Shown here: positions 13,810 through 63,104 of the stretch, one piece after another
Layout of the letters: the number at the start of each line of letters is the position of its first letter
How positions within the stretch are numbered: the first letter of the stretch is position 1
Assembly: GCF_036226885.1 (NCBI RefSeq)
Contig: NZ_CP109027.1
Span: forward strand, 6,386,001 to 6,450,000
Reading direction: 5' to 3'
Source: Streptomyces sp. NBC_00663
GTDB lineage: Bacteria; Actinomycetota; Actinomycetes; Streptomycetales; Streptomycetaceae
Length of the DNA: 64,000 nt
The notes under the pieces: model-generated
Told to the model about the DNA's origin: nothing
Seen by the model: only the letters and a program-made list of their open reading frames with translations
Database searches by the model: none
Made by a program: the position numbers and the translations under genes

Positions 13810-14841
13810 ATGGGGAACTCAATGTCGTTCATCGGCCGTGACATGGCTGTCGACCTCGGGACCGCCAACACGCTGGTGTACGTCAGGGGTCGCGGGATCG
13901 TACTCAACGAGCCGTCCGTCGTCGCGATCAACACCAACACCGGTGGCATCCTGGCGGTCGGCGCCGAAGCGAAGAAGATGATCGGGCGCACGCCCGGCAA
14001 CATCGTTGCCGTCCGTCCGCTGAAGGACGGCGTCATCGCCGACTTCGAGATCACCGAGCGGATGCTCCGCTACTTCATCCTGAAGATCCACAAGCGGCGG
14101 TATCTGGCTCGTCCGCGGGTCGTCGTCTGTGTGCCCTCGGGCATCACCGGCGTCGAGCGCCGTGCCGTCATCGAGGCGTCGTCCCAGGCCGGCGCCCGTC
14201 AGGTGCACATCATCGAGGAACCCATGGCCGCGGCCATCGGCTCCGGCCTGCCGGTCCACGAGGCCACGGGCAACATGGTGGTCGACATCGGCGGCGGCAC
14301 GACGGAGGTCGCGGTCATCTCGCTCGGCGGGATCGTCACCGCCCAGTCCATCCGCGTCGCGGGCGACGAACTGGACAACGCGATCATCCAGCACATCAAG
14401 AAGGAGTACTCCCTCCTCCTCGGTGAGCGCACGGCCGAGCAGATCAAGATCACGATCGGTTCGGCGTACGACCTCGACGCTGACGAGCACACCGAAATCC
14501 GCGGCCGGGACCTCGTCTCCGGACTGCCCAAGACCGTCGTCATCTCGGCCGCCGAAGTCCGCAAGGCGATCGAGGAACCCGTCAACGCGATCGTGGACGC
14601 GGTGAAGACGACCCTCGACAAGTGCCCGCCCGAGCTGTCCGGCGACATCATGGACCGCGGAATCGTTCTGACCGGCGGCGGCGCCCTGCTGCGCGGTCTC
14701 GACGAGCGGCTGCGCCGGGAGACCGGCATGCCGATCCACATCGCCGAGGACCCCCTCGACAGCGTGGCGCTCGGATCCGGCAAGTGCGTGGAGGAGTTCG
14801 AGGCGCTCCAGCAGGTCCTGGACGCCCAGCCGCGCAGATGA
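13810..14841 (+). CDS. mreB: Actin-like morphogenetic protein MreB
   Basis: A 343-residue bacterial actin. The phosphate-1 loop is [10 protein letters not shown] near the start, the phosphate-2 loop is [11 protein letters not shown], and an adenosine-site GGGALLRGL occurs near the C-terminus. In Streptomyces MreB is dispensable for hyphal growth but needed for a proper spore wall (established). ATG 13810 gives the length usual for the genus. ATG 13822 is an alternative preceded by GGGGAAC at 4-10 nt, while AGGAAGG lies 14 or more nt before 13810, so the true start is not settled. The 206-bp upstream region probably holds developmental promoters. A hairpin after the gene separates it from mreC. 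Confidence 0.97.
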
Positions 14842-61202: not shown

Positions 61203-61339
61203 GGTGTGGAGGGCGCCGAGGGCGCGCGCCTGCGCATATGCGTACGGCACACGCCCCCGGCGTACGCCCGTGCGTACGGCAGGCGTCTCATACAGCGGAT
61301 GAATTTCCGTACCGTCTGCCCAAATTGACCCCCCAGGTC

Positions 61340-61345
61340 TACTCT
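61340..61345 (+). promoter_or_regulatory. -10 box of a leaderless transcript
   Basis: TACTCT ends 6 nt before GTG 61352, and the flank CTACTCTG is identical to that of the next gene. Confidence 0.6.
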
Positions 61346-61351
61346 GGATTC

Positions 61352-61930
61352 GTGCCGGAGGACGTGGGGGGTACGCCGTTCCCTGACGGCTGGGAGCCCG
61401 ACGACGACCACGACCGCGGGGTGTCGGACGAAGAGTTCGCCTCCGTGGTCTTCGACGAGGCCTTCATACGGGCGGCCGTGGTGCACGAGCCGACCGCCGT
61501 CGAACGCCTCCTGGCCGCCGCCCAGGCGAGAGCGGAGGCCTCCGAGGCCGAGGCCCGCCGGGCCCACCGCCGCGGCGAGCGCTACGAGGACACGTACGGC
61601 GCCGAGGCCCGCGCCGGGTTCGACCACGACCCCGAGCTCGACGACCTGGACGACACCGACATCCTCGAAGGCCGCTTCGGCGCCCCGGGGACGTACGGCA
61701 AACAGGTCCGCTGGCACCGCCCCGTCGCCTGGATGCTGGCGCTCGTGATGGGCATCGGCATGGTCACGCTCGCCTTCACCGCGGTCTACCGGGGCGCGTC
61801 CTCGAACAGCCGGGACCAGGTCCCGCCGCCGCCTGCCACCACCGGTCTGGAGCAGGGCAGCGCGGCGGCCCCCTCCGCCTCCGCCGAATACTCCCAGCCG
61901 GCCTTCTCGGCGGTCCCCAAGTCGCCCTGA
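61352..61930 (+). CDS. Membrane protein with cytoplasmic SVVFDE motif
   Basis: A 192-residue protein. The acidic N-terminus contains EEFASVVFDEAFIRAA (about residues 28-43), then a helical acidic stretch (AAAQARAEASEAEARRAHRR) and one membrane helix (about 130-150), with a short Pro/Ser-rich outer tail. GTG 61352 begins at the proposed RNA start; the frame extends upstream to ATG 61238 but across the promoter. It is a shortened relative of the next gene: both share the SVVFDE[AS]F[IV]RAA motif. I know no biochemical function. Such proteins are found near the proA-nadD region in Streptomyces. Confidence 0.82.
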   Translation: MPEDVGGTPFPDGWEPDDDHDRGVSDEEFASVVFDEAFIRAAVVHEPTAVERLLAAAQARAEASEAEARRAHRRGERYEDTYGAEARAGFDHDPELDDLDDTDILEGRFGAPGTYGKQVRWHRPVAWMLALVMGIGMVTLAFTAVYRGASSNSRDQVPPPPATTGLEQGSAAAPSASAEYSQPAFSAVPKSP

Positions 61931-62018
61931 ACGCCCGCCGGGCATGCGCTGACGGTCCTGGTGAGAACCTGTCAGAACTTGTCGTGCGGCGGGGCGTTTA
62001 CCCGAGCTTCCGGAGACC

Positions 62019-62024
62019 TACTCT
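62019..62024 (+). promoter_or_regulatory. -10 box of a leaderless transcript
   Basis: TACTCT ends 6 nt before ATG 62031, a duplicate of the arrangement before the preceding gene. Confidence 0.6.
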
Positions 62025-62030
62025 GAAGAT

Positions 62031-63104
62031 ATGGGAGGGCCTGGAGAACCACCTGAGGGTGCACCCGAGGGCGTCCCCGGGGGTGGTGAGGACGAGTACC
62101 GGTCCGTCGTCTTCGACGAGTCGTTCGTCCGTGCTGCCCGGCTCCAGGAGTACTCCGCGCAGGAGCGCATCGCCGACCACGCCCCGGCCGTCCGGCGCCG
62201 CCCGCCGATGCGCCGGGGACTGTCCCGGCAGGCCCTCGTCCTGGTCCTGCTGATCGCCCTCGCCTTCGGCACGGCGATCTACATGGGCGTACGGCACCCC
62301 TACCAGACCCCCGCCCCCGTACGGGACGTCTCCCTGCCCCTCCAGACGACCGTCGTCCCGCTCGCCCCGGTGGGCCGGGTGCCGGGCGCGGCCGACCCCG
62401 AGTACCTGTACGACCACAGCCCCGCCGCGCAGTTCCGGATCGGCGCCGCCGGGATCACACTGCCCGCCGCGCGGGACACCTCGCACTTCTCCGAGACCCA
62501 GGTGATGAGCGCGCTGGACACGGTCAAGGAGTACCTGGTCCGGTCCGCCCTCTACCCGGAGGTCCTCACCGGCGGCGAGACCCGCCCCGTCCGCGTCCTG
62601 CTCCCCGCCGACCAGCACCTCCAGTTCGACGAGAGCCTGAGCCATCCCGCCGCGGACGGCCGGCACGCGGTGACCGGATGGCTGGTCCGCCTCGACGCCA
62701 GGACCGTGCAGCTGGCCGACCCGCAGATCCGGGTGAGCGGGACGCTGGCGGTCAGCGAGACCGAGTCCACGATGCTCGAGGTGACCGCGGACCACACATA
62801 CGTGTACGCGCTGCGGGCCGCCGGTGCGGACGCCAAGGCGCAGACCTCGCTGTTCACCGTCCGGCGCGAGCTGCACTTCCGGTTCGACCGGGAGGACGTA
62901 CGACTGCACCAGGCGCAGCTGTCCACGTCGTACGTGCAGGCCGGGCCGCTGTCCTGTGGGGACAACGCGGCGGATGTGCTGAGTCCGTTGCTGGCGGGGC
63001 AGACGGCGAAGGCGGGTGGGCCGGTGGGGACCGATCCGTTCGCCACGGATCGGGCCACGGCGGTGTGTGGGACGTTGGCTTCGGGGGCCTTGCCCAAGGG
63101 GTGA
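62031..63104 (+). CDS. Single-pass membrane protein with SVVFDE motif and large extracellular domain
   Basis: A 357-residue protein. The Gly/Pro/Glu-rich N-terminus leads to EYRSVVFDESFVRAARLQE (about 22-40), basic residues (RRRPPMRR), one membrane helix (about 68-86) and a 270-residue outer domain of alternating strands (VRVLLPADQHLQF, GWLVRLDARTVQLA, ELHFRFDREDVRLHQ) with two cysteines (LSCGDN, AVCGTL). It resembles in layout proteins found around the Streptomyces spore-wall complex, but no catalytic motif is seen. ATG 62031 is at the proposed RNA start. Tandem duplication with the gene before it is likely. Confidence 0.85.
   Translation: MGGPGEPPEGAPEGVPGGGEDEYRSVVFDESFVRAARLQEYSAQERIADHAPAVRRRPPMRRGLSRQALVLVLLIALAFGTAIYMGVRHPYQTPAPVRDVSLPLQTTVVPLAPVGRVPGAADPEYLYDHSPAAQFRIGAAGITLPAARDTSHFSETQVMSALDTVKEYLVRSALYPEVLTGGETRPVRVLLPADQHLQFDESLSHPAADGRHAVTGWLVRLDARTVQLADPQIRVSGTLAVSETESTMLEVTADHTYVYALRAAGADAKAQTSLFTVRRELHFRFDREDVRLHQAQLSTSYVQAGPLSCGDNAADVLSPLLAGQTAKAGGPVGTDPFATDRATAVCGTLASGALPKG

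Follow-up and report, generated by a model that had tools for sequence, protein, structure and literature searches.

Two adjacent genes at the end of a 64,000-nucleotide stretch of Streptomyces sp. NBC_00663 DNA, the whole of which is called the window here, raise the question of why two membrane proteins with different outer parts should share a short N-terminal motif, and whether their promoters were copied together with it. A sequence-only reading of the locus had proposed that promoter and motif form one duplicated unit and that the motif is a cytoplasmic docking element for a common inner partner. The genes follow putative proB and proA and are followed by a putative M48-type peptidase gene on the opposite strand:

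61352-61930 (+): gene 1, encoding a SCO2584-family protein of 192 aa, predicted to be single-pass with a short outer tail
62031-63104 (+): gene 2, encoding a SCO2583-family membrane protein of 357 aa

The two proteins were compared with the NCBIfam models (June 2026). Gene 1 matched NF052259 (SCO2584_fam, "spore wall biosynthesis protein") with 256.5 bits against a cut-off of 80 (residues 1-189; profile positions 1-203 of 204), and gene 2 matched NF052260 (SCO2583_fam) with 604.5 bits against a cut-off of 205 (residues 1-355; profile positions 1-354 of 354). With these full-length scores above the curated cut-offs, gene 1 is a member of SCO2584_fam and gene 2 a member of SCO2583_fam. No Pfam model, Septum_form included, matched either protein over its cut-off. 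As NCBIfam has both families and also a model of the shared segment, Sc_trio_core (NF052257), the pair and its motif had been noticed before, and the gene pair and the shared domain already carry database names. A full-text literature search found no paper naming SCO2584 or SCO2583, so a spore-wall role is ascribed to SCO2584 by its NCBI family name only; the search also found none naming SGM_3592, SVVFDE, SCO2582 or NF052257.

Of the 80 loci found to contain a close orthologue, all had both genes in tandem. As these are the best 80 of 457, close relatives dominate the sample; 79 of the 80 nearest named loci are from Streptomyces and the remaining one is from 'Actinobacteria bacterium OK074'. 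The SCO2583 model matched 121 of 121 genomes of the taxonomic family at E ≤ 1e-5 (120 of them over the cut-off), covering 17 of 17 genera. A motif-bearing ORF was found upstream in 46 of 50 loci with a SCO2583-like gene, and the four loci without one (L265-L268) hold second-copy paralogues.

The motif reads FASVVFDEAFIRAA in the gene 1 protein and YRSVVFDESFVRAA in the gene 2 protein, each containing SVVFDE-x-F-[IV]-RAA followed by one membrane helix. It had been given earlier as [EY]xSVVFDE[AS]F[IV]RAA before a membrane helix; motif and helix are there in both proteins, but the first class is [FY], not [EY]. NF052257, a curated 35-residue profile, scored above its cut-off in both, and the modules and helices were placed as follows:

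61430-61534 (+): Sc_trio_core module of gene 1, residues 27-61; NF052257 57.2 bits, E 1.1e-15, cut-off 30
62091-62192 (+): Sc_trio_core module of gene 2, residues 21-54; NF052257 51.0 bits, E 9.7e-14, cut-off 30
61724-61780 (+): predicted membrane helix of gene 1, residues 125-143 (Kyte-Doolittle, 19-residue window, 2.07)
62235-62291 (+): predicted membrane helix of gene 2, residues 69-87 (Kyte-Doolittle); helix 66-88 in the structure model

The outer parts do differ, as had been claimed, with 49 residues after the helix in gene 1 and 270 in gene 2. The motif consensus, over about 35 residues, is [FL]-D-E-x-[FW]-[VI]-R-x-A-x(3)-E-P-[ST]-A-x(2)-R. The E, A and R of E-x-x-A-x-x-R are invariant in 19 of 19 diverse rows, and the Asp of [FL]-D is found in at least 90%.

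Read from the sequence, both genes have the usual layout of Streptomyces leaderless genes, a −10 box about 6 nt before the start codon that is conserved among orthologues. In S. coelicolor leaderless mRNAs are given as arising from about 21% of primary start sites (PMC4895711), and another study gives 264 mRNAs with leaders of <10 nt (PMC4681348). The octamer CTACTCTG occurs at 61339-61346 and 62018-62025 and at no other place in the window (0.63 copies expected; 12 of 100 shuffles reach two). Five bases separate it from the GTG at 61352 and from the ATG at 62031, and the TACTCT hexamer within it lies 6 nt from each start codon; the same box, some six bases and the start codon were therefore confirmed before both genes. 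The pattern CTACTCTG-N5-RTG was found at these two places only in the 9.99-Mb genome (a reversed-pattern control gave one forward and one reverse match), and TA...T at exactly 6-nt spacing precedes 7 of the 3287 ATG/GTG triplets on the two strands of the window. The upstream features are:

61298-61351 (+): conserved 54-bp block at the gene 1 promoter; its −10 TACTCT is at 61340-61345, and CTGCCC precedes this hexamer by 18 nt
61964-61983 (+): direct repeat AGAACCTGTC/AGAACTTGTC, 67-48 nt before gene 2
61996-62030 (+): promoter of gene 2, consisting of GTTTAC, 17 nt, TACTCT (62019-62024), 6 nt and ATG

A −10 box is retained before each gene in all 80 close orthologous loci. For this count a start codon had to be in frame and to have TAC.CT 6 or 7 nt before it; for both genes, and in every one of the 80 loci, the codon so chosen is the one aligned to query residue 1; other start codons were set by script rules, and the gene 1 starts in the 50-locus neighbour check, which used the −10 box, were not counted as promoter evidence. 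For gene 1 the box was CTACTCTG in 78 loci, CTACCCTG in one and CTACGCTG in one, with a spacing of 6 nt in 78 and 7 nt in two and GTG in all 80. Conservation of the gene 1 block extends well beyond the −10, with 47 of its 54 columns at least 90% identical over the 80 loci and CTGCCCAAA present in every one; no TTGAC-like −35 was seen by eye at the usual spacing. The pattern CTGCCCAAA-N10-22-CTACNCTG has a single copy in the genome, and a regulon for this element was rejected on that ground. For gene 2, GTTTAC-N17-TAC.CT was found in 78 of the 80 loci, the box being CTACTCTG in 40, CTACCCTG in 38 and another sequence in two, with 6 nt in 79, 7 nt in one and ATG in all 80. Among wider gene 2 orthologues TA...T lies at exactly 6 nt in 40 of 46; five of the 46 have none at 5-8 nt, and three of these five show a ribosome-binding-site-like stretch by eye. 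The second-copy paralogues of gene 2 have no −10 box (0 of 4). The exact double repeat AGAACCTGTC/AGAACTTGTC, allowing two free positions, precedes gene 2 in 35 of 80 loci, and across 79 loci most columns of the repeat reach 80% identity or more; it is a possible regulator site. The two genes are thus the SCO2584/SCO2583 pair, which Streptomyces keeps side by side, and a separate promoter of leaderless type precedes each of them.

A joint duplication of promoter and motif, the full version of the sequence-only reading, would leave behind one octamer equally spaced from the two start codons, as is seen here. Upstream of the octamer, however, 11 of 46 bases are identical between the two promoters against a random mean of 12.1, and 71% of 2000 random placements gave a value as high or higher. 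The conserved elements differ as well (CTGCCCAAA before gene 1 and GTTTAC before gene 2), gene 2 orthologues carry CTACCCTG nearly as often as the octamer, and the loci of three further motif paralogues of this genome (L001, L004 and L005, described below) contain no CTACTCTG. Since only the −10 octamer is common and these three loci lack it, the promoter is not part of the duplicated unit; promoter duplication was rejected, and joint copying of promoter and motif, already contradicted by these data, is most improbable. As the promoters are otherwise unlike, the shared octamer is best read as two independent −10 boxes.

The motif itself proved specific. NF052257 gave four places over its cut-off in the 9.99-Mb genome and one more at E 3.1e-4, the next match being at 0.36. 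These five places are gene 1, gene 2, L001, L004 and L005. L001 encodes 77 aa and belongs to the SGM_3592 family (131.5 bits, cut-off 70). L004 encodes 88 aa, with a start chosen by the analyst, and adjoins a putative glutamine synthetase gene. L005 encodes 384 aa with an outer domain paralogous to that of gene 2 (26%, E 1e-13); its motif (22.2 bits, cut-off 30) and its SCO2583 match (101.8 bits, cut-off 205) are both below the cut-offs. Within the genus, NF052257 matched all 61 genomes that were searched. It had no match at E ≤ 0.01 in 14 control genomes, of which seven matched at E ≤ 10, none over the cut-off.

Across the class NF052257 was found in 81 of 394 genomes (12 of 137 genera), and the broader A2 profile in 86 of 394 (16 of 137 genera). 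The 19 rows of A2 are the five copies from this genome and 14 rows from 13 class genomes, in which it matches by construction, and the curated NF052257 search is the independent result on spread. In a sample of the phylum the motif was found in 11 of 296 genomes and 2 of 198 genera, nine of these genomes being from the same genus as the window and two from outside the class. The spread is therefore patchy, and most sampled actinobacteria are without the motif. With five places in 9.99 Mb, and none at E ≤ 0.01 in the control genomes, it is not a common helical sequence, a possibility that had been named as fatal to the docking idea. The other half of that test went the opposite way: short SGM_3592-type proteins bear the motif without a membrane helix. 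The motif thus also occurs outside the pair, outside the genus and in proteins other than membrane proteins.

Behind the motif, five kinds of protein were found: those with an NTF2-like-looking outer domain, those with a Septum_form domain, those with a peptidase-like part, those whose outer part is nearly absent, and soluble proteins of one family. They are spread over one taxonomic family (f1) and other families of the phylum. A Pfam scan of ten motif bearers from outside the genus gave PF13845 Septum_form in four, Peptidase_M10 just over its cut-off in one and nothing over cut-off in five. One membrane helix follows the motif in 27 of 29 proteins (of 30, L164 was omitted as a copy of L147), the exceptions being L001 of the SGM_3592 family and L157. 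No membrane helix was present in 31 further short motif proteins with basic tails, which came from a scan of 42 loci for the motif expression in proteins of no more than 140 aa and were assigned to the SGM_3592 type by eye, only L001 having been scored. Within the literature searched, the occurrence of the module on Septum_form and peptidase-like proteins is new here; it turns the notion of a single inner partner into one that can be tested.

L001 (1459-1692) and L157 (1414-1659) encode 77 and 81 residues with Trp/Phe- and Arg-rich tails; they may sit peripherally on the membrane, bind nucleic acids or serve the same partner as adaptors. Two out-of-class proteins, L275 (genome G780) and L276 (genome G693), carry the motif, a hydrophobic stretch and, by eye, an HExxHxxG-type sequence. 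Neither protein was used in building the profiles, and they are two of three out-of-class matches, the second match of G693 being left out. Their plan resembles that of L161 and L163 of family f29, and two distant lineages thus have a plan in common. Around the motif genes of family f18, serA- and leuA-like genes (by eye) flank four of seven loci and a fifth has a serA-like gene only; the neighbours at these seven loci were uninformative as to a partner. At three loci of genus g138 (L252, L254 and L255) a motif paralogue that is not of the SCO2584 type (410, 409 and 126 aa) directly precedes the SCO2583-like gene, and the locus may therefore have exchanged motif genes.

These architectures could in principle reflect paralogy with no common partner. 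A motif gene would have been duplicated and its outer part would have diverged or been swapped, and the N-terminus would have persisted for unrelated reasons, for instance membrane insertion or stability. The resemblance between the outer domains of L005 and gene 2 is what this predicts, the substituted paralogues in g138 agree with it, and the patchy spread shows no sign of a universally needed socket. It fits less well with outer parts that have no evident common family (Septum_form, peptidase-like, NTF2-like), with the invariant E, A and R over 19 diverse rows, or with a soluble family that retains the motif without membrane insertion. Taken together, paralogy without a partner appears rather unlikely.

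An inner segment, one helix and an outer domain is a usual layout for signal-relay proteins. In such a relay the N-terminus would be a regulatory segment, either a kinase substrate or a binder of the anti-sigma kind, and would signal what state the outer domain is in. An anti-sigma model matched L160 (E 0.038) and L004 (E 0.051) very weakly, but their 14.0 and 13.6 bits are far below the cut-off of 100, and in several motif proteins the chain ends 1 to 4 residues past the helix. Moreover, 4 of the 19 rows have Pro at the Ser/Thr position of E-x-[ST]-A; because of this, phosphorylation of the motif Ser/Thr cannot be general, and it was rejected as the general role. A signal relay is accordingly regarded as improbable.

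The protein of gene 2 was modelled with AlphaFold2 from 47 aligned relatives (alignment A3). The mean pLDDT was 84.7, with block means of 89 to 99 over residues 101-330 and about 80 beyond. One outer domain stands out:

62472-63005 (+): outer domain of gene 2, residues 148-325, in a predicted NTF2-like arrangement; block mean pLDDT 89 to 99

Cys309 is invariant in the 47 aligned sequences. NTF2-like chains ranked top for the outer part in Foldseek, with a best E of 4.1e-3, none at or below 0.001, and a TM to target of at most 0.51 among the matches listed. VIA-align gave Z up to 7.4 (rmsd 3.7, 128 residues), the CaMKII hub, VirB8 (Z 6.4-7.0) and other NTF2-like chains lying within about 1 Z of each other. 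The outer domain is likely, on this model, to have an NTF2-like arrangement, the strength of the matches being middling and the likeness silent on function. A sequence search of the PDB gave no match for the gene 2 profile and two chance-level matches for the motif profile (E 0.081 and 1.3).

The motif was predicted in the gene 2 model as an isolated helix (residues 30-36) with a pLDDT of about 50. Such a low-confidence isolated helix fits a segment that folds on binding; the low pLDDT is equally what plain disorder would give.

The reading preferred here is that the segment of about 35 residues shared by this SCO2584/SCO2583 pair is a cytoplasmic docking segment for one partner in the envelope machinery, which is put at slightly better than even. 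Arg-rich residues before the helix suggest that both proteins, predicted to be single-pass, would have the N-terminus inside the cell. The docking segment would be a brief helix followed by E-x-x-A-x-x-R, in otherwise disordered sequence. Through it, one cytoplasmic or membrane-proximal partner may recruit proteins with differing outer parts, be it a short tail, a peptidase-like part, or a domain of the NTF2-like or Septum_form kind. The motif is portable and specific and heads differing outer parts, and it is this variety that strengthens the docking reading. The docking part of the original proposal thus remains plausible, although the motif is patchily spread, the promoter has dropped out of the unit and the common inner partner is something we infer. 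The NCBI family name and the Pfam domain name point to a link with spore or septal wall synthesis.

A bolder form of the docking reading, possible but on balance doubtful, treats the segment as an 'inner plug'. One conserved hub of the wall machinery, perhaps an MreB-linked complex, would recruit unrelated outer effectors, which lineages would have swapped, and the soluble SGM_3592-type copies would act as competitors or adaptors.

SCO2584 is said to be among the Mre-interaction partners. Among 394 genomes of the class, MreB was found at E ≤ 1e-100 in 84 of 86 motif-bearing and 179 of 308 motif-free genomes (per-genome p 8e-15, a value inflated by shared descent in a sample dominated by two families); the two motif-bearing genomes without MreB are 84% and 63% complete. 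In a smaller set 22 of 24 motif-bearing genomes had MreB. Counted per genus, the co-occurrence was not significant (14 of 16 vs 81 of 121, p 0.15). MreB alone does not explain the distribution, because it is also present in the 179 motif-free genomes. The co-occurrence is suggestive, being compatible with an Mre link without showing one, and MreB as sole partner, significant per genome but not per genus, was not established. The window contains an mreB of its own at 13837-14811 (C1:6399837-6400811), and another MreB-like match, a weaker one, was found at C1:6619066-6620025. The SSSC is described in PMC4416010.

If the docking reading is right, the partner of this portable tag would be a handle on septal and spore wall assembly in actinobacteria, and envelope proteins that are at present unannotated could be grouped by their N-termini.

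Four known systems may be compared with the pair. Like Streptomyces leaderless promoters, both genes have the −10 box 6 nt before the start codon; the gene 1 block differs from these in being conserved far beyond the −10 with no TTGAC-like −35 seen. VirB8 has a short inner N-terminus, one helix and an outer NTF2-like domain, and the protein of gene 2 would resemble it and other NTF2-like single-pass proteins in this plan; it differs in having no PDB sequence match and only middling structural ones. The Septum_form (PF13845) proteins of family f18 share the plan of motif, linker, one helix and outer domain, whereas the window proteins do not match Septum_form. The closest system is Sc_trio_core, a domain named after SCO2583/SCO2584, to which the segment shared by the window proteins corresponds. 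Both proteins lie far above the cut-offs of the domain and of their own families, and the third family, SGM_3592_fam (NF052258), also scores to the domain, weakly. The SCO2583-like second paralogue L005 and the peptidase-like protein L161 fall below the cut-off of the domain, and beyond the named families it is exceeded by the small membrane protein L004 and by the Septum_form proteins L146 and L148.
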